64,000 nucleotides of DNA, from positions 1-64,000 of the forward strand of contig CAMZBA010000004.1 in assembly GCA_947304395.1 (NCBI GenBank), in the 5' to 3' direction. This document shows positions 3,465-58,888 of this stretch, piece after piece (the first letter of the stretch is position 1; the number at the start of each line of letters is the position of its first letter). The notes beneath the pieces were generated by a model. The model saw only the letters and a program-made list of their open reading frames with translations. It was not told the origin of the DNA and did not search any database. The DNA comes from an uncultured Candidatus Saccharibacteria bacterium (GTDB lineage Bacteria > Patescibacteriota > Saccharimonadia > Saccharimonadales > Saccharimonadaceae). The position numbers were made by a program, and so were the translations under genes.

Positions 3465-3495
3465 TTAACACAAAATAGAATTCATAGTGTATAAT
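3465..3495 (+). promoter_or_regulatory. Promoter for penicillin-binding protein gene
   Basis: TTAACA at 3465-3470 and TATAAT at 3490-3495, spacing 19. The -10 box ends 6 nt before the ATG at 3502, so the transcript would begin at or next to the start codon. The box also overlaps a GTG at 3487, which argues against that upstream start. Confidence 0.7.
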
Positions 3496-3501
3496 GAAGT
3501 A

Positions 3502-6234
3502 ATGGCAAAACTTAAAACTGCGAGTAATAAGAAAAAAGCCATCAACTCTTCAAGCAAACATGAGGTCAAGAAATCGGCCAAGAAGAGTGGGATGAGCTTG
3601 TATTCAAACCTAGCTTACAAGCGTCGCGTTAAAGAAGATATGCGCGCTCGCAAAAAAGCTGAGGAATTAGCAAAGCTACCAAAGAACCCGATTTTGCGCT
3701 TCTTTGCAAGGTTAAGGCCGGATCGTGTTTTTAAAGCAATCTTCTCCAAACAAGGAATGATTCGTATTCTGAAATTTATTGTCGTCTGTATATTATTGAT
3801 GATTATTGCTGTTGGGGGTCTCTTCCTTTACTTCAAGAAAGATTTGTCCGAGATTGATCCAGAAGAGTTGGCTAGCCGAGTGCAAAATACCGTTAATACC
3901 TATTATGACCGTAACGGAGAGTTATTGTGGGAAGATCGCGGTAGCGGCGACTATCGCCTCGTAGTAGACGGCAGCGACATTTCTACTTATATGCGCCAAG
4001 CAACCGTGGCGATTGAGGATAAAAATTTCTACAATCACGCCGGTATCGACCTCAGCGGTATTGCCCGCGCCGTATATGTGACCGTATTAAAGCGCGGCAG
4101 CGTACAAGGTGGCTCTACTCTTACTCAGCAGTTGATTAAGCAAGTATATTTCTCCGATGAAGCAAAGGACCGTTCCTTCTCTGGTATTCCACGTAAGATC
4201 AAGGAGATGATTCTTGCCATTGAGGTCGAGAAAATGTACGACAAAGAGCAGATTATTACTCTGTATCTAAACGAGTCCCCATATGGCGGCCGTCGCAATG
4301 GCGTCGAATCCGCTGCGCAAACTTATTTTAATAAGAGTGCAAAAGATTTGGATTTAGCCGAGTCAGCCCTACTTGCCGCTATTCCGAACAACCCTGGCGT
4401 ATTGAATCCATATAATTCGGACGGAAACGAAGCCTTAATAAATCGCCAACACTTGGTACTAAATGCAATGGTTGACATGGGCTATATTTCCAAAGAGGAA
4501 GCTAAAAAGGCAAAAGAGATTGATATTCTCGACAGAATTCAGCCTGAACAGAATCAATACGCAGGCATGAAGGCCCCTTGGTTCGTGCTTGAAGTACGCT
4601 CTCAGCTAGAGCAAAAATATGGCATTAAGATTATGCGCGAAGGCGGCTTCTCAATAAAGACCACCTTGGATTATCGTGCACAAAAGATTGGCGAAGCTGC
4701 TGTAAAAGCTGGTCAAAAGGTCTTCTCTATAAACGGCGCCGATAATGCCGCTCTCGTGTCGGTCGATGTCGAAACTGGCCAAGTTATATCAATGGTCGGC
4801 AGTGTTGACTGGAATAAGCAAGGCTATGGGCAAGTAAATGCTACAACTTCGCTATTGGAGCCAGCCTCCTCTATCAAACCGATTCTCGACTATACACCTC
4901 TCTTTATGAAGCGCAATGGCGTGAACTATGCGCCTGGCACAATTTTACGCGACGAAAACATCAACTCAATCTATTGCGCAGGGACTTATGGTAACTGTAG
5001 CGTCAAGAATTATGACGGTAGATTTTATGGGAATATTACCATTCGGAAATCGCTCGCCGGCTCGTTAAATATTGCCGCAATTAAAGCACTTTACATTAAT
5101 GGTATCGACAATAGCCTAAAGGTGGCGCATGATTTGGGCGATAAGTCTTATTGCGCGAATGGTGAAGTTGCCGGCCTCTCTATGGCAATCGGTGGCGGTT
5201 GTTCGGTTCGACCGGTCGAACATGCCAATGCGTATGCTAGCCTTGCACGCGGAGGCGTCTATAAGGACTTAACTTACTGGCTCGAAATTAAAAACTCGAC
5301 CGGCGACGTGATTGATGCATGGGAAGATACGAAAGGCACTCGCGTTGTCGATGATCAGGTTGCCTATATGACCATGAGTATCCTTACGGATTGCAATGCT
5401 CGCACTTTCACCTTCGGTTCATTAGCATACAATCGCGGCTTCTGTTCAAACTCGAACGATGTCGTGTTCGGCTCAAAGACGGGAACTTCAGAAAACGGTA
5501 AAGGTCGCGCTAAGGATACTTGGATTATGACGGTCTCGCCAGTTCTCGCAACTGCGATTTGGAGCGGTAATCATGACGGCTCACCTCTCTGGAACGATAC
5601 TCACGATATTTGTTTCGCAATTAGTTCGGCTTACATTAGCCCAGTTCACAATGAAGTATATGCAAAAGATGGAAAGTGGAAGAAAGGACAGAACTTTGAG
5701 GTTCCAAATGGTATTAAACATACAACAATTAATGGCGTATATGACTACTGGCCAAGTTGGTATACTCAAAAGAGTTCGGGGATATCCACAACCGAGAAAA
5801 CTTTTGACCGCATAAGCAAGAAACTTGCTACTAGTTGTACTCCGGCGGAAACTAAAGTGAATGCTGACGTGACAAAAATAATTGATCCAATGACAAAAAA
5901 AGAAAGCTTTACGGCAGGTGAATACAACCCTAACGCCAACGACGACGTTCACAGTTGTGACGACAAGCGCCCGACGGCATCAATCAGCGTAACAAGCTCT
6001 GGTAGCGAGGAAGACGAGTCGGCAAGCTGGACTATCTCCGCAACGGCGAACTTTGGCACCTTTGAACTAGAAAGTTACACTCTCGTCGTGAACGGCCAGA
6101 CCGTCAAGAGTGGCGGAATGGGAGCCTCTGGTGGTACTGCGGAATATATAACGACAACGAAACCGACCAGTATCAGCTTCAAGGTGACAGACCGAGCCGG
6201 CTACACAACAACAGCAACTGGCGCAGCGGAATAA
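3502..6234 (+). CDS. Bifunctional penicillin-binding protein (class A PBP)
   Basis: Peptidoglycan glycosyltransferase plus transpeptidase of about 910 residues, anchored in the membrane and acting outside the cell. From the ATG at 3502: a basic cytoplasmic tail of about 85 residues, one membrane segment (about 89-110), a GT51 glycosyltransferase domain with the catalytic Glu in EDKNFYNH (E172), and a transpeptidase domain with SSIK (S456-K459), SLN (521-523) and KTG (659-661). The C-terminal region of about 150 residues is Ser/Thr-rich and looks like a small beta-sandwich domain. An in-frame GTG at 3487 would add five residues but overlaps the TATAAT box, so the ATG is preferred. It is transcribed divergently from leuS and ends at a hairpin shared with the convergent PIN-TRAM gene. 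Confidence 0.95.
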   Translation: MAKLKTASNKKKAINSSSKHEVKKSAKKSGMSLYSNLAYKRRVKEDMRARKKAEELAKLPKNPILRFFARLRPDRVFKAIFSKQGMIRILKFIVVCILLMIIAVGGLFLYFKKDLSEIDPEELASRVQNTVNTYYDRNGELLWEDRGSGDYRLVVDGSDISTYMRQATVAIEDKNFYNHAGIDLSGIARAVYVTVLKRGSVQGGSTLTQQLIKQVYFSDEAKDRSFSGIPRKIKEMILAIEVEKMYDKEQIITLYLNESPYGGRRNGVESAAQTYFNKSAKDLDLAESALLAAIPNNPGVLNPYNSDGNEALINRQHLVLNAMVDMGYISKEEAKKAKEIDILDRIQPEQNQYAGMKAPWFVLEVRSQLEQKYGIKIMREGGFSIKTTLDYRAQKIGEAAVKAGQKVFSINGADNAALVSVDVETGQVISMVGSVDWNKQGYGQVNATTSLLEPASSIKPILDYTPLFMKRNGVNYAPGTILRDENINSIYCAGTYGNCSVKNYDGRFYGNITIRKSLAGSLNIAAIKALYINGIDNSLKVAHDLGDKSYCANGEVAGLSMAIGGGCSVRPVEHANAYASLARGGVYKDLTYWLEIKNSTGDVIDAWEDTKGTRVVDDQVAYMTMSILTDCNARTFTFGSLAYNRGFCSNSNDVVFGSKTGTSENGKGRAKDTWIMTVSPVLATAIWSGNHDGSPLWNDTHDICFAISSAYISPVHNEVYAKDGKWKKGQNFEVPNGIKHTTINGVYDYWPSWYTQKSSGISTTEKTFDRISKKLATSCTPAETKVNADVTKIIDPMTKKESFTAGEYNPNANDDVHSCDDKRPTASISVTSSGSEEDESASWTISATANFGTFELESYTLVVNGQTVKSGGMGASGGTAEYITTTKPTSISFKVTDRAGYTTTATGAAE

Positions 6235-14231: not shown

Positions 14232-16475
14232 TTATGCTAGATTATCGTACTCTTCGACCGAGGAGATAAGTAGCTCACGGCCCTTATTGCCACTTGCCGA
14301 CTCGCCTACTATACCTAGGTCTGAAAGTTCGTCGATAATTGCTGCCGCACGACCATAGCCGATGCGCAAACGACGTTGCAAAAGTGATGTCGAAATTTTT
14401 CCTTCACGAAGTGCAACTTCTACAGCTTGGCGTTTAATATCGCCACCGCCGCCGCCCATGTCGACGCCAACGCCAGCCGCTCCTTTACCACCAAGAACAA
14501 CGGTCTGGGAGGTAACTTCATTATTGTAGTTAGCGGGTGCTTGTTGACGTAAGAAATCGGTGACCTTGGCTATCTCTGGGTCGCTCAAGAACGCGCCCTG
14601 AACGCGTAGCGGCTTTCCCATCATCTCAGTAGTGAGAAAGAGCATGTCGCCTGAGCCGAGTAGTTTTTCAGCACCGCCCATGTCGAGCATAACGCGCGAG
14701 TCGGTATTGTTGTTCACCGCAAAGGCGATACGTCCCGGGATATTAGCTTTTATTAAACCGGTAACAACTTTAACTTCTGGACGCTGAGTAGCAAGAACAA
14801 GATGAATGCCAGCAGCGCGGCCTTTTTGGGCGATACGTACGATCAAAGTTTCAAGTTCTTTCCCCGCCATCATCATGAGATCCGCCATCTCGTCCACTAT
14901 CACAACAATATATGGCATTTTACCATTGTCGTGCTTCTGCTCGTTCCCGTCTTCATCCGTAATGGCAACCGGGGCTCCCTCTTTTGCCATTTTTTCATTA
15001 TAGTCGACAATATTCTTTACGCGCACATCCTTCATGGTCGTATAGCGCGACTCCATTTCTTTGACTGCCCACTGCATAGCGCTGAGAGCTTCGGAAACGT
15101 TAGTTATCACTGGTGCCAATAGATGCGGAATTGCGTCATAAGCAGCCATTTCTACCTGTTTTGGGTCTATGATAATCAACCGCAAATCCGCCGGAGAGTT
15201 ATGATAAAGCATAGACGTAATCAAGGTATTTGTCATGACGGACTTACCAGAACCAGTTGTACCGGCAATTAATAGATGCGGCATTTTAGCCAAGTTGCCC
15301 ATAATTGGACGGCCAGAAATATCTTTGCCGACCGCAAACGCGAGCGGTTTGTCGGCAATAATCTTGTGCCACTCATTAGACTTCAGTAATTCATGTAAAC
15401 CAACACTAGCAGCTTTATTGTTTGGAATTTCGATGCCAACCGTGCGAGTTCCGGGAATTGGAGCTTCGATGCGGATTTTATCCTTTGCTAGATTTAAGGC
15501 TAAATCGCGATCTAAGGTGGCAATTTTGCTAACCTTCACCCCTGCGGGCGGACGAAGCGTATATTGCGTAATGCGGGGGCCAACATTGGCTCCTTCTACC
15601 TCAACATTAATTCCGAATTGCTCGAGCGTGTCTTTGATAATGGCGGCGTTGCTGTGGGTGTCGCCAGGATCAGCAGGAGAGCGTTTTTTGCTAAGAAGAT
15701 CCATTGGCGGCATTTCCCAGTTCGGGTCATTGACTGCTAATAGAGTAGTCGGCTCGTCGACGACTGCCGGTTTTTCTTCGCTAGTAGACTTCTTCGCAAG
15801 GAGGCCATGTTTTTCTTTCTTGTGGTCGGCAATTTCAACATTTGAGTTAACCTTAAAATTCTTCAGGCCGTCATCGTCGCCATCGTCAATATTACGACCG
15901 ACCGTAGCGCGTCGCATAACTTTTGCGTTTTTGGCATCCTCCTCGTTCTTGCTAGTCCTGAAAATAGAGCTGATTTTACGGAATAAAGCAGCAGGGGTTT
16001 CCGCATACATGAATAATGCGGTAATTAATATCAGTACCACATAAGCAAAAATCGCAACACCGTTGCCGAGCGTTTTGACGGCAACGCTATTTAAACCATC
16101 GCCGATGACGCCACCGGTAGGAGGCTCTTTGCCGTAGCTGGGCACGCCAAAAATCCCGCAAAACCAGAAAATCATTAAAGCCGAGGCAACCCAAACGCTA
16201 GCATCGAGGCGATTATTCTGTGCGCGAAAAATCATGACAGCTAGATAGGTTAGCAAAAATGGGAATAAGTAGGTGGTATATCCAAAGATTTTCAGAAACA
16301 CATCATTAACATTCTGAAGAACAACGCCACCCTTCCCCATCCACGTAACTACGAATACGATCGCCACGCAGATCATCAATAGGGCCATTATTTGGCGCCA
16401 AAAACCTCCGGGTAGTTCGTGTGAGCTAGTAACTTCTTGTGTCTTTTTCCTTCTTCCGCGTTTTTTTGTTGCCAT
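14232..16475 (-). CDS. ftsK: DNA translocase FtsK/SpoIIIE
   Basis: Septal DNA pump, 747 residues. It has a basic N-terminus, four membrane segments (about 27-165), a charged linker, the alpha/beta motor with Walker A GTTGSGKS and Walker B VVIVDEMADLMM, the conserved LATQRP block, and a C-terminal gamma winged-helix domain (about the last 65 residues; KISTSLLQRRLRIGYGRAA) that reads orienting DNA motifs. It moves chromosome ends through the closing septum. The promoter is a TATAAT 8 nt before the ATG (plus strand 16484-16489) with no ribosome site. Confidence 0.96.
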   Translation of the reverse strand: MATKKRGRRKKTQEVTSSHELPGGFWRQIMALLMICVAIVFVVTWMGKGGVVLQNVNDVFLKIFGYTTYLFPFLLTYLAVMIFRAQNNRLDASVWVASALMIFWFCGIFGVPSYGKEPPTGGVIGDGLNSVAVKTLGNGVAIFAYVVLILITALFMYAETPAALFRKISSIFRTSKNEEDAKNAKVMRRATVGRNIDDGDDDGLKNFKVNSNVEIADHKKEKHGLLAKKSTSEEKPAVVDEPTTLLAVNDPNWEMPPMDLLSKKRSPADPGDTHSNAAIIKDTLEQFGINVEVEGANVGPRITQYTLRPPAGVKVSKIATLDRDLALNLAKDKIRIEAPIPGTRTVGIEIPNNKAASVGLHELLKSNEWHKIIADKPLAFAVGKDISGRPIMGNLAKMPHLLIAGTTGSGKSVMTNTLITSMLYHNSPADLRLIIIDPKQVEMAAYDAIPHLLAPVITNVSEALSAMQWAVKEMESRYTTMKDVRVKNIVDYNEKMAKEGAPVAITDEDGNEQKHDNGKMPYIVVIVDEMADLMMMAGKELETLIVRIAQKGRAAGIHLVLATQRPEVKVVTGLIKANIPGRIAFAVNNNTDSRVMLDMGGAEKLLGSGDMLFLTTEMMGKPLRVQGAFLSDPEIAKVTDFLRQQAPANYNNEVTSQTVVLGGKGAAGVGVDMGGGGGDIKRQAVEVALREGKISTSLLQRRLRIGYGRAAAIIDELSDLGIVGESASGNKGRELLISSVEEYDNLA

Positions 16476-33604: not shown

Positions 33605-33618
<14 letters not shown>

Positions 33619-34486
33619 TTTCGAGCCTTTCTATACGTGCTTCAATTGGCGGATGAGTCGAGAAAAAACGGCTCAATACAGATTTTTTCAGTGGATTAGA
33701 AATATACATCGCCTCGGTCGCTACGTTTTGCTGGCGCATTGGGCGATTGTGTGCATCGAGTTTGCGCAAAGCGTTTATCATATCGTCCGCATTGCCGATT
33801 AACGAGGCCGAAGATGCATCCGCAAGGTATTCACGCTGGCGCGAGACGGCCAATTGAACAACCGTTGCGACCAGTGGCGACAAAACCAGAACGCATAATA
33901 CAAACAACATGCCGATTGGCGAATTATCCTCCTCTTCGCGGTCGCTATACCAAAGAACACGAAGCCCAAAATCCGACAGCAATCCAACCAGACAGGTCAA
34001 GCCAAAAGTTATCGTACTAATGCGAATATCGTAATTGCGCACATGCGACATTTCGTGCCCAAGTACCGCGCGAAGCTCTTTATCGTCCATTATGTCGAGC
34101 AATCCGCGCGTAACGGCAATCGCCGAATGCTGTGGATCACGGCCAGTCGCAAAAGCGTTTGGCGCCGAGTCGTTAATGATATATAGGCGCGGCGTTGGGA
34201 TTTTTGCGTTTTCGGCCAAAGATCCGACGATGCGGAAATATCGCGATCCTTCGTCTGGATTAGCCTCCTTTGCGCCGGCACTAACTAGAGCGATTTTGTC
34301 GGAAAAGAAATATTGAAATATTGCATAGCCCGCCGATAGAATTGCGCACCATATTAGGATAGCTGGATTATTTGAAAGCCATGCAAATAGCCAGCCAATT
34401 AAGCTAATTATTGCTACAAAAACAAACATAATTAATATTGTATTAATTTTGTTTTGTGCAATTTGCTTTTGCAAAGCTACTGCCAT
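33605..34486 (-). CDS. htpX: Membrane zinc protease HtpX (M48)
   Basis: HtpX-type M48 peptidase, 293 residues, which degrades damaged membrane proteins. Two N-terminal membrane segments (about 18-37 and 41-60), the zinc motif HEMSH at 144-148, two further membrane segments (about 160-220), and the third ligand Glu in the REYLADASSA stretch. Full length. It starts a compact operon with the 368-aa membrane protein and ligA. Together with ClpCP and the 24.2-kb metallopeptidase it gives three proteolytic systems in the window. Confidence 0.94.
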
Positions 34487-38211: not shown

Positions 38212-38240
38212 TTGACTTTTCATATAAACTGTGATATAAT
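38212..38240 (+). promoter_or_regulatory. Consensus promoter of leader ORF and MFS gene
   Basis: TTGACT at 38212-38217, exactly 17 bases, TATAAT at 38235-38240. The leader ATG starts 6 bases later, so it should be translated from a leaderless 5' end. Confidence 0.88.
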
Positions 38241-38246
38241 TACCTT

Positions 38247-38348
38247 ATGAATATTAATGTTTTTGCATACTGGTTCTACGTTGTAGCTGCCGCCCTTGCA
38301 GGCGTGCATTTTGCTACGCTTCGTATTCCTGTTGCAGAAACTGTCTAA
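38247..38348 (+). CDS. Leader peptide (33 aa) ahead of MFS exporter
   Basis: A 33-codon frame, ATG at 38247 to TAA at 38346, product MNINVFAYWFYVVAAALAGV and then HFATLRIPVAETV; hydrophobic, one possible membrane helix. A consensus promoter places the transcript start at its ATG. It is followed 11 bases later by arms of competing hairpins (38360-38445) and by the MFS gene at 38488. This arrangement matches translational attenuators of resistance genes, where a ribosome halted in a short leader changes RNA folding. It could instead be a small membrane protein in its own right. No Shine-Dalgarno. Confidence 0.72.
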   Translation: MNINVFAYWFYVVAAALAGVHFATLRIPVAETV

Positions 38349-38359
38349 TTCTTGTAAAA

Positions 38360-38483
38360 CTAGATAAGTTTCAAAAGCGACTTATCTAGGAAAATCATCT
38401 CTCTATCGCCTTTGAAGTTTATCTAGCCGTATAAAAAAGACGGCTGGCACTTTAATAATATACGCAACTTGAAAAGGAGGGAT
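38360..38483 (+). promoter_or_regulatory. Alternating hairpins and masked ribosome site (candidate attenuator)
   Basis: Arm 1 (38360-38369, CTAGATAAGT) pairs perfectly over ten bases with arm 2 (38380-38389), or, extended to 38372, over 13 bases including two G-U with arm 3 (38414-38426); the two cannot coexist. A further stem AGCCGT/ACGGCT (38425-38430 with 38440-38445) overlaps arm 3. Between arms 2 and 3, ATCTCTCT at 38397-38404 can pair over eight bases (two G-U) with GGAGGGAT at 38476-38483, the ribosome site of the MFS gene. There is no T run after any stem, so control would be on translation. Confidence 0.7.
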
Positions 38484-38487
38484 TCTA

Positions 38488-39654
38488 ATGCGTAAAAATG
38501 ATCCAATGCGCAACTTGCGTCTAGTTATTCTAGAATCGGCGGTGACGGCTGGAATATTAGCCGTGCCGATTATGACACCGTTCTATTTAAGCATCGGCCT
38601 GAGCCAGGAGCAAATTGCGATGTCGCAGATGGCTTTTACGGCCGCCACGATGATTCTCAATCTTCCCTTAGGTTGGGTAGCTGATCGCTTCAGCCGTAAG
38701 TGGGCCAACGTTATTGGCGACTCAATAGTGGCTATCTCGCTGTTGCTCTACTCTACGGCTCAGAGTTTCTGGTTTGTTGTCCTTTGCGAAACGCTCTGCG
38801 GAGTAGGAAACGCTCTTTCACAGGGAGTAGATTCGTCTCTTCTGAAGCATTTCTCGGAGAAAGTTGACGACTCCGGCCAAATATTCAGGAGTAAATACGC
38901 CAAGATGGCCTCTTGGCGCCAGATTGCAACACTAACCATACTACTGCTTGGCGGGCCGATTGGTGCAATCAGCTTTCGCTTAGCTATAGCAGCATCGGCC
39001 GTAAACCATTTCGTGGGCGCTTTTGTCAGCCTACTAATCGTTGATGACAGCGAGCGGCTCGGCGCAACGAGTAATCCGCTTTCGGAGATTGCGGCATTGG
39101 TAAAGCGAAACATAAACAATCGCAAACTTAGAGTTCGCATTGCCGCCTATGCGGTAGCGCGCGAAATTACGCATGGCATTATTTGGGTTTTTACACCATT
39201 GATGCTCCGAGTCGGCGTTCCGTTGGCTGTAGTCTCAGTAGGCTGGGCAATTAATTTCGCTGTAGCATATCTGGGAACTAGACTTGCGCGCCGATTTGCG
39301 CCAAAAATGAAAGATTGGCAGCTGTTTATCGCGCCAATTGCACTAATTAGTTTCGCGAGCGCGATAATGTATCTCAACCTAAACACTGCGACCATTTGCC
39401 TCTATGCCTGCTTCGGGTTAGCGCAGGGCTGGAGTTCTGCTACGATGATGCCGCTTGTAAAAGAGCAGACCCGTGCGGCCGAGCAAAGCTCAGTCGAATC
39501 TTTGGCGCGCGTCATCGCCCAGCTGCTCTATATAGTAGCAGTGTGGGCAATTAACCGCGCAGCGGACATTCGATTGGAGTATTCTCTGCTGGCAACAATA
39601 GCTATTTTCGTGCCGCTCGCCATCCCGATCGTCTTGAAGTTGCGTAAAGAATAA
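38488..39654 (+). CDS. Major facilitator superfamily exporter
   Basis: A 388-residue transporter with about 12 membrane segments in two halves. Motif A, GWVADRFSRKWA, lies between segments 2 and 3 (about 62-73); the second half starts near residue 215 after a basic loop (KRNINNRKLRVR). Proton-driven drug or metabolite efflux is the usual role of such proteins with this motif; the substrate is not evident. A GGAGG site precedes the ATG, and upstream lies a leader ORF with competing hairpins, suggesting drug-inducible expression. Codon use resembles the backbone genes rather than the cassettes. Confidence 0.92.
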   Translation: MRKNDPMRNLRLVILESAVTAGILAVPIMTPFYLSIGLSQEQIAMSQMAFTAATMILNLPLGWVADRFSRKWANVIGDSIVAISLLLYSTAQSFWFVVLCETLCGVGNALSQGVDSSLLKHFSEKVDDSGQIFRSKYAKMASWRQIATLTILLLGGPIGAISFRLAIAASAVNHFVGAFVSLLIVDDSERLGATSNPLSEIAALVKRNINNRKLRVRIAAYAVAREITHGIIWVFTPLMLRVGVPLAVVSVGWAINFAVAYLGTRLARRFAPKMKDWQLFIAPIALISFASAIMYLNLNTATICLYACFGLAQGWSSATMMPLVKEQTRAAEQSSVESLARVIAQLLYIVAVWAINRAADIRLEYSLLATIAIFVPLAIPIVLKLRKE

Positions 39655-39706: not shown

Positions 39707-39780
39707 GGTGCGTTGGCGGAGCAGTTACGCAGAGGTCTGCAAAACCTCCTAGACCAGTGCAACTCTGGTACGCACCTCCA
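39707..39780 (+). tRNA. tRNA-Cys (GCA), CCA encoded, altered elbow
   Basis: A full cloverleaf of 74 bases: acceptor GGTGCGT/ACGCACC, D-stem GCG/CGC, anticodon stem GAGGT/ACCTC with loop CTGCAAA (anticodon GCA), T-stem ACCAG/CTGGT, discriminator T and encoded CCA. It aligns position by position with E. coli tRNA-Cys. Two elbow positions differ from nearly all tRNAs: the D-loop has A at 18 rather than G, and the T-loop reads TGCAACT, giving G at 55 rather than U. These two bases normally pair with each other (G18-pseudoU55). Confidence 0.95.
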
Positions 39781-39794
39781 CAATTGCTGTGCCT

Positions 39795-39881
39795 GCCCGA
39801 GTGGCGGAATTGGTATACGCGGCGGACTTAAAATCCGCTTCCTTTACCGGATTATGAGTTCGAGTCTCATCTCGGGCACCA
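39795..39881 (+). tRNA. tRNA-Leu (TAA), CCA encoded
   Basis: A class II tRNA of 87 bases: acceptor GCCCGAG/CTCGGGC, anticodon arm GCGGA CTTAAAA TCCGC (anticodon TAA), long variable arm (about CTTCCTTTACCGGATT), T-loop TTCGAGT of standard form, discriminator A and encoded CCA. It lies 14 bases after tRNA-Cys and is probably cut from the same precursor. Confidence 0.96.
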
Positions 39882-40000: not shown

Positions 40001-40027
40001 GATAAGGCCGAAGGCCCTATTTTTTAA
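40001..40027 (+). terminator. Plus-strand hairpin terminator facing uppS
   Basis: AAGGCC-GAA-GGCCCTA then TTTTTT on the plus strand. No plus-strand gene precedes it directly; it may stop read-through from the tRNA unit. Confidence 0.65.
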
Positions 40028-40740
40028 CTTTTAATACTGCCAAAGCGGCGATCGCGAGATGTATATTCTATTATCGCTTGGTCAAAGTCGGCCTCATGAA
40101 AATCTGGGAATTTAGTTTCGGGAAAATAAAATTCCGCATAAGAGTTTTGCCAGAGTAGAAAATTGCTTAGGCGGAGTTCGCCGCTAGTGCGAATCATTAA
40201 ATCAATGTCTGGCAAATCGTGATAGAGGTAGTGGCGAAAGTCGTCATCATTAAGCTCGTCTACGTCAACACCCGATTTTACGATCTTTTTCACCGCATCC
40301 ATAATTTCCGCACGACCGCCATAGTTCATGCAAAAGTTCACAATACCGCCAGTATTATTTTTCGTAGCCTCGATTAGTTCGTCTCGCGCCTTGATTACTG
40401 ATTTTGGAAGTGGGGCATCCCGGCCGGAAAAGACTACTTTAATATTATCCTCCATAAATATCTTGAGTTCTTTTCTGTACATCAAGATAAAGAGATCCAT
40501 CAGGTGGCCAACTTCTTCACTGGGGCGCTTAAAATTCTCCGTCGAGAGAACATAAAGGCTTAATACTTTTACGCCGCGCGACATTATATAACGCAGAAGC
40601 GTGCGCATGTTATTATAACCAGCATCGTGCCCTTTGATTCGTGGCAAACCTCGCTCTTTTGCCCAACGACCATTGCCGTCAACAATAATAGCTACATGAT
40701 TGGGGACCTTTAGTTGCGAATAATCTACCGCAGTGTCCAT
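40024..40740 (-). CDS. uppS: Undecaprenyl diphosphate synthase (cis-prenyltransferase)
   Basis: Makes undecaprenyl diphosphate, the lipid carrier for peptidoglycan precursors, by adding isopentenyl units to farnesyl diphosphate; 238 residues, usual length. The catalytic block AIIVDGNGRWAKERGLPRIKGH (Asp and Arg/His for diphosphate) is near residue 17, followed by LSLYVLSTENFKRP, IRTSGELRLSNFLLWQ and YAEFYFPE. The promoter is TATAAT 8 nt before the ATG (plus strand 40749-40754). Presence of this gene fits the wall-synthesis genes elsewhere in the window. Confidence 0.97.
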   Translation of the reverse strand: MDTAVDYSQLKVPNHVAIIVDGNGRWAKERGLPRIKGHDAGYNNMRTLLRYIMSRGVKVLSLYVLSTENFKRPSEEVGHLMDLFILMYRKELKIFMEDNIKVVFSGRDAPLPKSVIKARDELIEATKNNTGGIVNFCMNYGGRAEIMDAVKKIVKSGVDVDELNDDDFRHYLYHDLPDIDLMIRTSGELRLSNFLLWQNSYAEFYFPETKFPDFHEADFDQAIIEYTSRDRRFGSIKS

Positions 40741-52162: not shown

Positions 52163-52780
52163 TTACAATTCTGTTACTACAGAATCGTCTTTTAGTTTTT
52201 TATCTTTTAATCGTGGACTCTGTTCGTATATTAGTCGGCAGACATGCATGGCGGCCTCTTTATCGCTACTTAGGCTAAAATGACTGGTGCGATTGAAACA
52301 ATCCTCGACGACAAGCATTTTGCCGTCCGTATTATGCGCATCGCCCGTTACATACGAATTCGTAATATCCTCCAGACGCATGATAGTACTAGGATTATCT
52401 AAGTCAACAATATACTTGTAGTTAAAGCGAAATCCGTCATGTTCGTACACGGCCTTGCCTTTAGCGACCTCATTGATAACTTCCGTTAATTGTTTTACGT
52501 CCTTAAAAACACGGAAAACTGGATCATTCGTCACTACGCTATCGTTTATGGCTGGAGCAATAAAGCGTCTCCAAATAATAAAATAATCAACAATGAAGCT
52601 TGCTATTACGCCGATCGCAAGCAGCGCAATAGCAACAGCCAGTTGCTTCATTGCGCCCGGTACGGCGCAAAACGTGAGTAAAAATATCGACGGCATAATT
52701 AGCATCGTTAAGGCATACGAAAAGATTTCTTTCCGATGGTTTGATCTGATTTTTTTAATAATATCTTGCTCGGTATACAT
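52163..52780 (-). CDS. Two-helix membrane protein, unknown
   Basis: A 205-residue protein: short N-terminal region, two membrane segments (about 24-42 and 46-68) and a soluble C-terminal domain of about 130 residues with strands (VYEHDGFRFNYKYIVDLD, DGKMLVVEDCF). Its start lies 6 bases after TATAAT, and the 15-base context TATAATTAGCTTATG is identical to that of the gene at 57083-58888. Family not recognised. Confidence 0.72.
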   Translation of the reverse strand: MYTEQDIIKKIRSNHRKEIFSYALTMLIMPSIFLLTFCAVPGAMKQLAVAIALLAIGVIASFIVDYFIIWRRFIAPAINDSVVTNDPVFRVFKDVKQLTEVINEVAKGKAVYEHDGFRFNYKYIVDLDNPSTIMRLEDITNSYVTGDAHNTDGKMLVVEDCFNRTSHFSLSSDKEAAMHVCRLIYEQSPRLKDKKLKDDSVVTEL

Positions 52781-57083: not shown

Positions 57084-58888
57084 TATTCTACTGTTATCTC
57101 GAAGGTGACTTTATTTGGGTCGCTCGGTACGGAAGTTACCCAGAAGTATGAAGTATCTACCTTGACTTCGCTGATGCCCTTAATAGATTTAAGAAGCGAC
57201 TGCACTTCGCCAATTTTTTTGCCGAGCGACTTATCAGAAACCATTTGTTCAGTGACTTCTGGACCAGTTTTTACGACGGTCTTTAGCCTACCAACATATT
57301 TGTTGTCTTCTTTCTTGAAGGAGTCGATATAGACTTTATTGTCTTCGCCGTCTTCACTCGATACGCCAGTCGAGTAGATGGTTTGCGTATCATCGCCAAT
57401 TTCTGTTTTCGCTTCAATAAATTTACTAAGGTCATCACGTTTTACGGCAAAAATAGTATATTTAATTTCCTTAATCACCTTCGGTTTGATTCCGTCTTTT
57501 ACTTCCTCATTAATAGATGGAGATGCGGTTATTTTGCCGCTAGTTGCCGTGAAGCTCTTCTCGATTAGTAAGTATTCGTTGCTGAATTGGCTAGCAAGCT
57601 CCTCGCGAGCATCGGATTCACCCTCACCCTCTAGGCCAGCTTCAGCCGTCTCGACGTCTTTTTGGGAAACGACTTTGACTTTTTTGCTCGTGCCGCCCGT
57701 CATAGCAGTGCCGGATACGTTGAAGGCTTTGCTAGTAGACAAGCTAGACGACCAACCAGAGTTTTTAGCTTCGATATTATACTTTTCGCCATTACTCTTC
57801 GCCACGACACTGATAGAGCCGGACGAGATTACGCTTTTGAGAGTATAAGTACATTTTTGATTAAAGAATCCACCCGTACAATGCTTGTTTACCTGCCCGC
57901 TATTATTTACATCAACATTAACCGAGCCGCCCACCGATGTAACATAAGTCAGCCCGTCATTAGTAAACTCTGTACCGGCCGGAATAGAAAAGACCGCTTC
58001 GCTCTCATTACTAATCACCGTGCCGGCTGGACGCGTAACCGTAATCGAACCCGTCGCCTTAGTGCCCTTATCCACTTCTCCAGTGGCAACAAACTCCGTC
58101 TCGGCAGTCTTAGTCAAAGTTTTTTGCTCGATGAAGAATATGCCGTCTTCTGGCTTCGCTTTAGTCTCGTCGGTTACAAAAGTAATGCTCTCGTTGAAGT
58201 TTTGGGCAATAGTTTTAATCTTTACGGAGATTTTTGCAGCCGGGGCAATACTAAAGGCCCAGAAGCCGATGCCAAAAATGAGCAATATCGCAATAACCGC
58301 AATTATGATTGGCGTGCGAACCTTCTTAAAGTCAGGGATATTCTTGTTGGCTTTTTTCTTGGCAGATTTCTTTTCTTCTTCGTCATCGTCGAAATCGTCA
58401 TCATCTAGCTCTAAGTCCGCTTCTTTGCGCTTTGAGGCTGCGGCCGCCTTTGCACTGCTTTCTTTCTTGACGGGAATCTTTTTAGGTTCTTCCTCTATTA
58501 CATCGTCATCATTACTATCGTTAGGGTCGTCATCTTCTTTAGTCACCTCTTCATTATCGTTCTCATCGGCGTCGTCTTTTTTCTCATCACCAAATTCCTC
58601 CGTATCCATATCAGACGGCAGTTTTGGTTTACTCTGCAGAGTGCGAGCCGTTGGCATCTTTACGTTCTCAGCAAGTTTCAAAAGTGATTCGTCGGAAGTA
58701 ATCAGAACAACAGCCTTGCCGGCTTGGCGAGAAGTCTTGGCGATTAACTTAAAGTTGACAGCGCTACGCAAAACGCCAGCTTTCTTGGGCGGCACTAGAG
58801 CAACGATTTTATTCTTTGCGCTTTTAATATTAGCCAGGATATCGGTAATATCATCCTCAGGCTCGATGTAGATGACGTCTTTATTCAT
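57083..58888 (-). CDS. Single-pass acidic surface protein, Patescibacteria type
   Basis: A 601-residue protein with a cytoplasmic N-terminal domain (about 1-90; IYIEPEDDITDILANIKSAKNKIVALVPP), a low-complexity Asp/Glu/Lys section (about 95-185), one membrane segment (about 190-212) and an external region of about 385 residues rich in strands, with repeated Ser/Thr/Val patterns (GSITVTRPAGTVISNE, FSIPAGTEFT). I recall proteins of this layout in many CPR genomes, often labelled baseplate-J-like, and an attachment or surface-organising role is plausible but unproven. Two Cys (about 338 and 345) may form a disulphide outside. The upstream TATAATTAGCTTATG matches that of the 52.2-kb gene exactly. 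Confidence 0.82.
   Translation of the reverse strand: MNKDVIYIEPEDDITDILANIKSAKNKIVALVPPKKAGVLRSAVNFKLIAKTSRQAGKAVVLITSDESLLKLAENVKMPTARTLQSKPKLPSDMDTEEFGDEKKDDADENDNEEVTKEDDDPNDSNDDDVIEEEPKKIPVKKESSAKAAAASKRKEADLELDDDDFDDDEEEKKSAKKKANKNIPDFKKVRTPIIIAVIAILLIFGIGFWAFSIAPAAKISVKIKTIAQNFNESITFVTDETKAKPEDGIFFIEQKTLTKTAETEFVATGEVDKGTKATGSITVTRPAGTVISNESEAVFSIPAGTEFTNDGLTYVTSVGGSVNVDVNNSGQVNKHCTGGFFNQKCTYTLKSVISSGSISVVAKSNGEKYNIEAKNSGWSSSLSTSKAFNVSGTAMTGGTSKKVKVVSQKDVETAEAGLEGEGESDAREELASQFSNEYLLIEKSFTATSGKITASPSINEEVKDGIKPKVIKEIKYTIFAVKRDDLSKFIEAKTEIGDDTQTIYSTGVSSEDGEDNKVYIDSFKKEDNKYVGRLKTVVKTGPEVTEQMVSDKSLGKKIGEVQSLLKSIKGISEVKVDTSYFWVTSVPSDPNKVTFEITVE

Follow-up and report, generated by a model that had tools for sequence, protein, structure and literature searches.

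The locus and its features

The element described here lies ahead of a gene for an MFS transporter in the window, by which we mean the whole stretch of 64,000 nucleotides from an uncultured Candidatus Saccharibacteria bacterium that was analyzed. Its features are as follows:

38212..38240 (+): promoter with TTGACT (38212-38217), a 17-base spacer and TATAAT (38235-38240), from the sequence
at or next to 38247 (+): predicted transcription start, from the promoter position
38247..38348 (+): leader ORF of 33 codons, predicted to be leaderless, MNINVFAYWFYVVAAALAGVHFATLRIPVAETV; conserved in orthologs
38259..38267 (+): arm -1, GUUUUUGCA; from the MFE fold and from duplex energy against re-paired arms
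38333..38347 (+): arm 0, UGCAGAAACUGUCUA, at the 3' end of the leader (final codons and stop); from 0:1 covariation in relatives
38360..38379 (+): arm 1, CUAGAUAAGUUUCAAAAGCG, partner common to arms 0, 2 and 3; from sequence and covariation
38380..38389 (+): arm 2, ACUUAUCUAG, counterpart of the 3' terminator arm of relatives, here without U-run; conserved pairing
38397..38404 (+): anti-Shine-Dalgarno element, AUCUCUCU, just 5' of arm 3; from the MFE fold
38407..38426 (+): arm 3, CGCCUUUGAAGUUUAUCUAG, with which arm 1 can form a long alternative helix; conserved pairing and covariation
38423..38447 (+): hairpin 4, CUAGCCGU...ACGGCUGG, sharing CUAG with arm 3; from the MFE fold and conservation
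38474..38483 (+): Shine-Dalgarno (SD) sequence of the MFS gene, AAGGAGGGAU, from the sequence
38488..39654 (+): MFS transporter gene, 388 aa; Pfam MFS_1, 9.5e-19

The original prediction had a consensus promoter start the transcript right at the 33-codon ORF, and the sequence is in line with this: the leader ATG (38247) lies six bases 3' of the -10 box, at the normal distance of a transcription start. Its description of the pairings was reproduced as well. Arm 1 begins at 38360, eleven bases past the leader TAA, and pairs either with arm 2 (CTAGATAAGT, 38360-38369, with ACTTATCTAG, 38380-38389; ten perfect pairs) or with arm 3 (CTAGATAAGTTTC with GAAGTTTATCTAG, 38414-38426; 13 pairs including two G-U), the latter helix extending to 19 of 20 pairs between 38360-38379 and 38407-38426. 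The SD region can pair over eight bases with ATCTCTCT (38397-38404), a pairing that is present in the MFE fold, and no T-run follows any stem of the window element. A further pairing over nine bases, between GUUUUUGCA (38259-38267) and UGCAGAAAC (38333-38341), joins arms -1 and 0 and is also part of the MFE fold. The MFE of -75 kcal/mol compares with -58.5 +/- 4.4 kcal/mol for shuffled sequences (z -3.7; 0 of 200 shuffles).

The MFS protein carries motif A (GWVADRFSRK) and a GGPIG segment that we take to resemble antiporter motif C. Its nearest NCBIfam models, TetA(P) and the HP1165 effluxers, match weakly, as does NorA. We regard the pump as a generic MFS_1 protein with a probable role in drug efflux. 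Two unremarkable tRNA genes lie 3' of the pump gene (window 39707-39878).

The leader ORF

For many ordinary genes of the window, the ATG is preceded at a distance of 5-9 bases by a TATAAT-like box, and a Shine-Dalgarno sequence is absent; examples are:

3486-6231 (+): gene with this arrangement
14234-16475 (-): gene with this arrangement
33607-34486 (-): gene with this arrangement
40026-40740 (-): gene with this arrangement
52165-52780 (-): gene with this arrangement
57085-58888 (-): gene with this arrangement

Leaderless transcripts thus look common in this genome, and the view that the leader is unusual in being leaderless has to be given up. Judged by the position of its promoter, the leader itself probably starts without a 5' untranslated region, and the -10 box lies 6-7 bases 5' of the leader ATG in nearly all pump orthologs.

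Of 46 aligned elements, 45 have their leader stop 3-16 bases past arm 0, a result that is in part due to selection, since leader starts were picked among the ORFs ending near arm 0. Likewise, frame 0 is open in 68 of 68 leaders and the other frames in 4 of 68, again partly by selection. The automatic leader start is doubtful for L120 and L125, and that of L079 was set by hand; L125 was left out of the -1:0 duplex test and of the ribosome-position calculation for terminator-type elements. Within close groups, codons 10-28 show a pN/pS of about 0.39, and the middle codons show an excess of third-position changes. The leader ORF is thus conserved with a signal of purifying selection, and we predict that it is translated. 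The reading frame into which arm 0 falls differs between lineages, so this arm is conserved as RNA.

Conservation and occurrence

The MFS protein was detected in 63 of 295 genomes of the family at E <= 0.001, a count that takes in distant MFS proteins. Its nearest orthologs, 97-91% identical, occur in Candidatus Saccharibacteria MAGs. Among the better-matching loci, for which upstream DNA was inspected, the leader, arms 0-3 and hairpin 4 are present in nearly all clear orthologs with upstream DNA (about 37-97% identity). The original prediction had staked itself on arms and leader frame being kept by relatives that keep the pump, and both are kept. In 24 orthologous leaders of close relatives arms 0-3 are nearly invariant and the middle of the leader drifts; arms 1 and 2 are paired there in 100% of cells, and arms 1 and 3 in 97.5% of cells in close relatives. 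Because the arms hardly vary, covariation is scarce in the close group of the window. Arms 2 and 3 are fused into one in the group L021-L026 and L044. The element is absent at L023 and at the distant or partial homologs L045, L048 and L049, and also before a 50% identical pump homolog (L147) in a record named Erysipelotrichaceae, a finding due either to transfer of the gene or to misbinning of the contig.

The 1:2 helix forms an intrinsic terminator in eleven orthologs that are less closely related, as exemplified by GTCTCCGACAAAGGAGACTTTTTTT at L033. From such terminator-type orthologs the covariance model R2 was built, and R3 is a wider model. Matches, a few false ones included in each count, were obtained in 29 of 393 genomes of the order, 38 of 393 genomes of the class and 11 of 380 genomes of the phylum, so that other families, other orders and other classes are represented. 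The element of the window is the top R3 match within the window (38315-38456, E 0.019). No Rfam family matched above its gathering score. Five matches (L092, L097, L117, L118, L127) were dropped because they are plain terminators that lack both a leader and a matching gene, and reverse-strand matches on L071, L072, L078 and L079 are palindrome artefacts. Once plain terminators are removed, and with L114 and L115 set apart, the downstream gene encodes either an MFS transporter or, at 27 loci, an acetyltransferase of the GNAT type; Pfam Acetyltransf_3 was confirmed for the eight of these that were tested, and evident similarity served to assign the rest. L114 (G430:C16:80834-83069) is a second element-like match directly 3' of the attenuator-controlled MFS gene of L095, and the product of the gene that follows it, 389 aa long, matches no Pfam family.

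Covariation of the arms

Over 31 aligned elements, 84% of cells are paired in the 0:1 helix (7 of 10 pairs with double changes), 95.8% in the 1:2 or terminator helix (6 of 9 pairs) and 87.8% in the 1:3 helix (10 of 15 pairs). Covariation scores of all three exceeded those of all 500 shuffles (0/500), which ignore kinship between the sequences, and of all slid versions. Since the 1:2 helix and hairpin 4 guided the fitting of the alignment, these two are favored by it, and 0:1 and 1:3 are not. An independent MAFFT alignment (A1) agrees in showing covariation of arm 1 with each of arms 0, 2 and 3.

Complementarity to arm 0 is also present in arm -1, located at roughly codons 3-9. Over 77 elements, native -1:0 duplexes have a mean energy of -12.4 kcal/mol, compared with -7.7 kcal/mol (sd 0.28) for re-paired arms (0 of 2000 as low). 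The three arms proposed originally are real, but there are five in all: arms -1 and 0 had been overlooked, and with them the 0:1 pairing.

As in attenuators of the vmlR/bmrB type, the 0:1 and 1:2 helices are mutually exclusive, and both covary here; the -1:0 duplex corresponds to an anti-antiterminator that a stalled ribosome could cover, with a position dependence that is computed. An intrinsic terminator precedes the gene in most relatives but not in the window element, which has no U-run. In terminator-type elements such as L079, L070 and others, arm 1 contains CCUCC, which resembles the 16S rRNA anti-Shine-Dalgarno, and GGAGG is present in both arm 2 and arm 3; the arms could consequently also hinder ribosome binding. 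Hairpin 4 is found in nearly all terminator-type elements too. Together with a UUUAC-like motif 3' of it (window 38423-38456 and counterparts) it is conserved across many lineages.

Computed effect of ribosome position

Folding was calculated with a 30-base block standing for the ribosome. Placing the A site at codons 4-11 lowered the mean terminator probability over 44 terminator-type elements to about 0.55, compared with 0.87 without ribosome and 0.93 with the ribosome at the stop codon; for several terminator-type elements the computed result was independent of ribosome position. For the group of the window, with the RNA ending at arm 1, the computed 0:1 pairing was 0.34 without ribosome, 0.8 for codons 1-12 and 0.0 at the stop. 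These calculations support a switch that would be ON for a stall over codons 1-13 and OFF without ribosome or with a ribosome at the stop. Thus only an early-stalled ribosome should induce.

Without ribosome, the SD in the clade of the window is paired to the anti-SD region or to the 5' part of arm 3 with a mean probability of 0.62 (up to 0.99), and no clear anti-SD was found in group B (L018-L020, L028-L031) and some others. Masking of the SD in the uninduced fold, which marks erm/cat systems, is predicted for the window and for the majority of its clade, group B excepted. In full-length RNAs of this clade with a ribosome at codon 7, equilibrium folding still favors 1:2 for many of the sequences, and on average the opening of the SD is hardly altered. 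As equilibrium folding by itself yields no ON state here, a co-transcriptional step was considered, and the ON state of the clade rests on a kinetic argument.

Proposed mechanism and alternatives

The comparison of relatives establishes a conserved predicted start and stop of the leader and conserved arms -1/0/1/2/3 with covariation, and a leader-peptide attenuator with mutually exclusive pairings before the MFS gene, as originally proposed, is well supported. We put the probability that it is a cis-acting, ribosome-sensing attenuator working by the full scheme that follows at roughly 0.8. The leaderless mRNA would begin with the leader of about 33 codons. If no ribosome is present, arm -1 would hold arm 0, leaving arm 1 to pair with arm 2, and a ribosome that reads to the stop would cover arm 0 and lead to 1:2 again. 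A ribosome stalled over the first 13 codons or so would instead cover arm -1, so that arm 0 captures the newly made arm 1 and blocks 1:2. Because 1:2 is an intrinsic terminator in most lineages, we read -1:0, 0:1 and 1:2 as anti-antiterminator, antiterminator and terminator, and a stall would there permit read-through into the MFS pump or GNAT acetyltransferase gene. In the clade of the window, 1:2 lacks the U-run and would leave arm 3 and the anti-SD free, masking the SD of the pump; upon a stall, 0:1 would keep arm 1 off arm 2 until arm 3 is made, and 1:3 would then use up arm 3 and open the SD. This opening step is the weakest of the scheme, since the equilibrium calculation shows no opening on average. 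Given the anti-SD element beside arm 3 and the loss of the U-run, the output of this clade is probably translation. The claim that control acts on translation is thus likely to hold for this clade, but not for most relatives, which have a true terminator.

The original prediction favored a translational attenuator of the erm/cat type, in which a ribosome held near the end of the leader would hide arm 1, release arm 2 and alter access to the pump SD, here taken as opening it. SD masking and the missing T-run in the clade of the window fit this reading, and in a few members (L012, L013, L010, L008) a ribosome at the stop does move 1:2 to 1:3 in the calculation. However, in the window itself the SD stays masked with a ribosome in this position, while in terminator-type relatives such a ribosome masks arm 0, abolishes the covarying 0:1 pairing and gives OFF; the activating position would be the first 13 or so codons. 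Since it also leaves arms -1 and 0 without a role, we consider activation by a late stall unlikely.

Stalling from the lack of one charged tRNA, as in trp attenuation, would share the series of protector, antiterminator and terminator, and most leaders in the clade of the window have TAC TGG at codons 8-9. Yet the leaders as a whole share no repeated or conserved amino acid, and no conserved amino-acid codon run was found in their first 13 codons. A queuosine-type signal in NAY codons was considered and rejected, as base composition accounts for the overrepresented Asn, His and Tyr codons. With pumps and acetyltransferases downstream rather than biosynthesis genes, an amino-acid attenuator is very improbable. 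Equally improbable is a riboswitch or protein-binding leader for which the ORF would be irrelevant. The strong conservation of the RNA suits it, as do hairpin 4 and arm 3, to which the attenuator scheme gives no role in terminator-type elements. Against it, the ORF is open in all leaders, begins at the predicted transcript start, ends next to arm 0 and has the third-position excess described above, and the RNA has neither an Rfam family nor a large conserved aptamer-like core besides the arms.

Returning to the ribosome-sensing attenuator with its early stall, ribosome-targeting compounds are its likely signal, because pumps and acetyltransferases lie downstream; induction by drugs that stall the ribosome is hence plausible. 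On balance we also find it probable that the elements represent a phylum-wide CPR family of leaderless ribosome-arrest attenuators, in which one element is transferable between unrelated resistance-type genes (MFS, GNAT), the arm 1 strand is contested by three partners, and the clade of the window has changed its output from termination to Shine-Dalgarno masking.

Such a conserved attenuator would mean that reduced CPR epibionts sense trouble at their own ribosomes by RNA alone. It would mark the pumps and acetyltransferases as candidate intrinsic defences and give a handle on what inhibits CPR ribosomes, perhaps products of their actinobacterial hosts. The same switch driving either termination or translation would form a natural series. 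Almost nothing is known of gene regulation in CPR bacteria. As the switch stands before pumps and acetyltransferases in CPR lineages both near and far, its role there may be that of a general detector of ribosome trouble.

Comparison with known systems

This kind of regulation is already known. New, as far as we searched, are the family and its hosts, the competition of three partners for arm 1 and the apparent switch in output: no leader-peptide attenuator in Saccharibacteria or CPR/Patescibacteria was found in the open-licence papers covered. In the translational attenuators of ermC and cat-86, a leader peptide controls access to the SD of a resistance gene, as it probably does in the clade of the window. 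However, those systems are not known to have an arm like arm 3 or an anti-antiterminator over the first codons, and the relatives of the window element are terminator-based. We know of no anti-antiterminator series in the polycysteine sORFs of mycobacteria. These resemble the present leaders in that a leaderless short ORF serves as attenuator, and leaderless attenuator ORFs are thus known from that group, but they sense cysteine through Cys codons (Canestrari 2020, cited in PMC13236596).

Closer likenesses exist in Bacillus subtilis. The bmrB-bmrCD system, induced by ribosome-targeting antibiotics, combines a leader peptide with anti-antiterminator, antiterminator and terminator ahead of a multidrug transporter; that transporter is of the ABC type, and the structures lie within the leader ORF (PMC4191407). 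In the vmlR leader, too, a stall brings about an antiterminator instead of an intrinsic terminator before a resistance gene, the uORF lies inside the anti-antiterminator, and an added SD sequestration is relieved in the induced fold (PMC9226507). In contrast to the vmlR uORF, a tripeptide with its own SD ahead of an ABC-F gene (PMC9226507), the leader described here has about 33 codons, is predicted to be leaderless, is followed by one strand with three competing partners (arms 0, 2 and 3), and would control MFS or GNAT genes in CPR bacteria.
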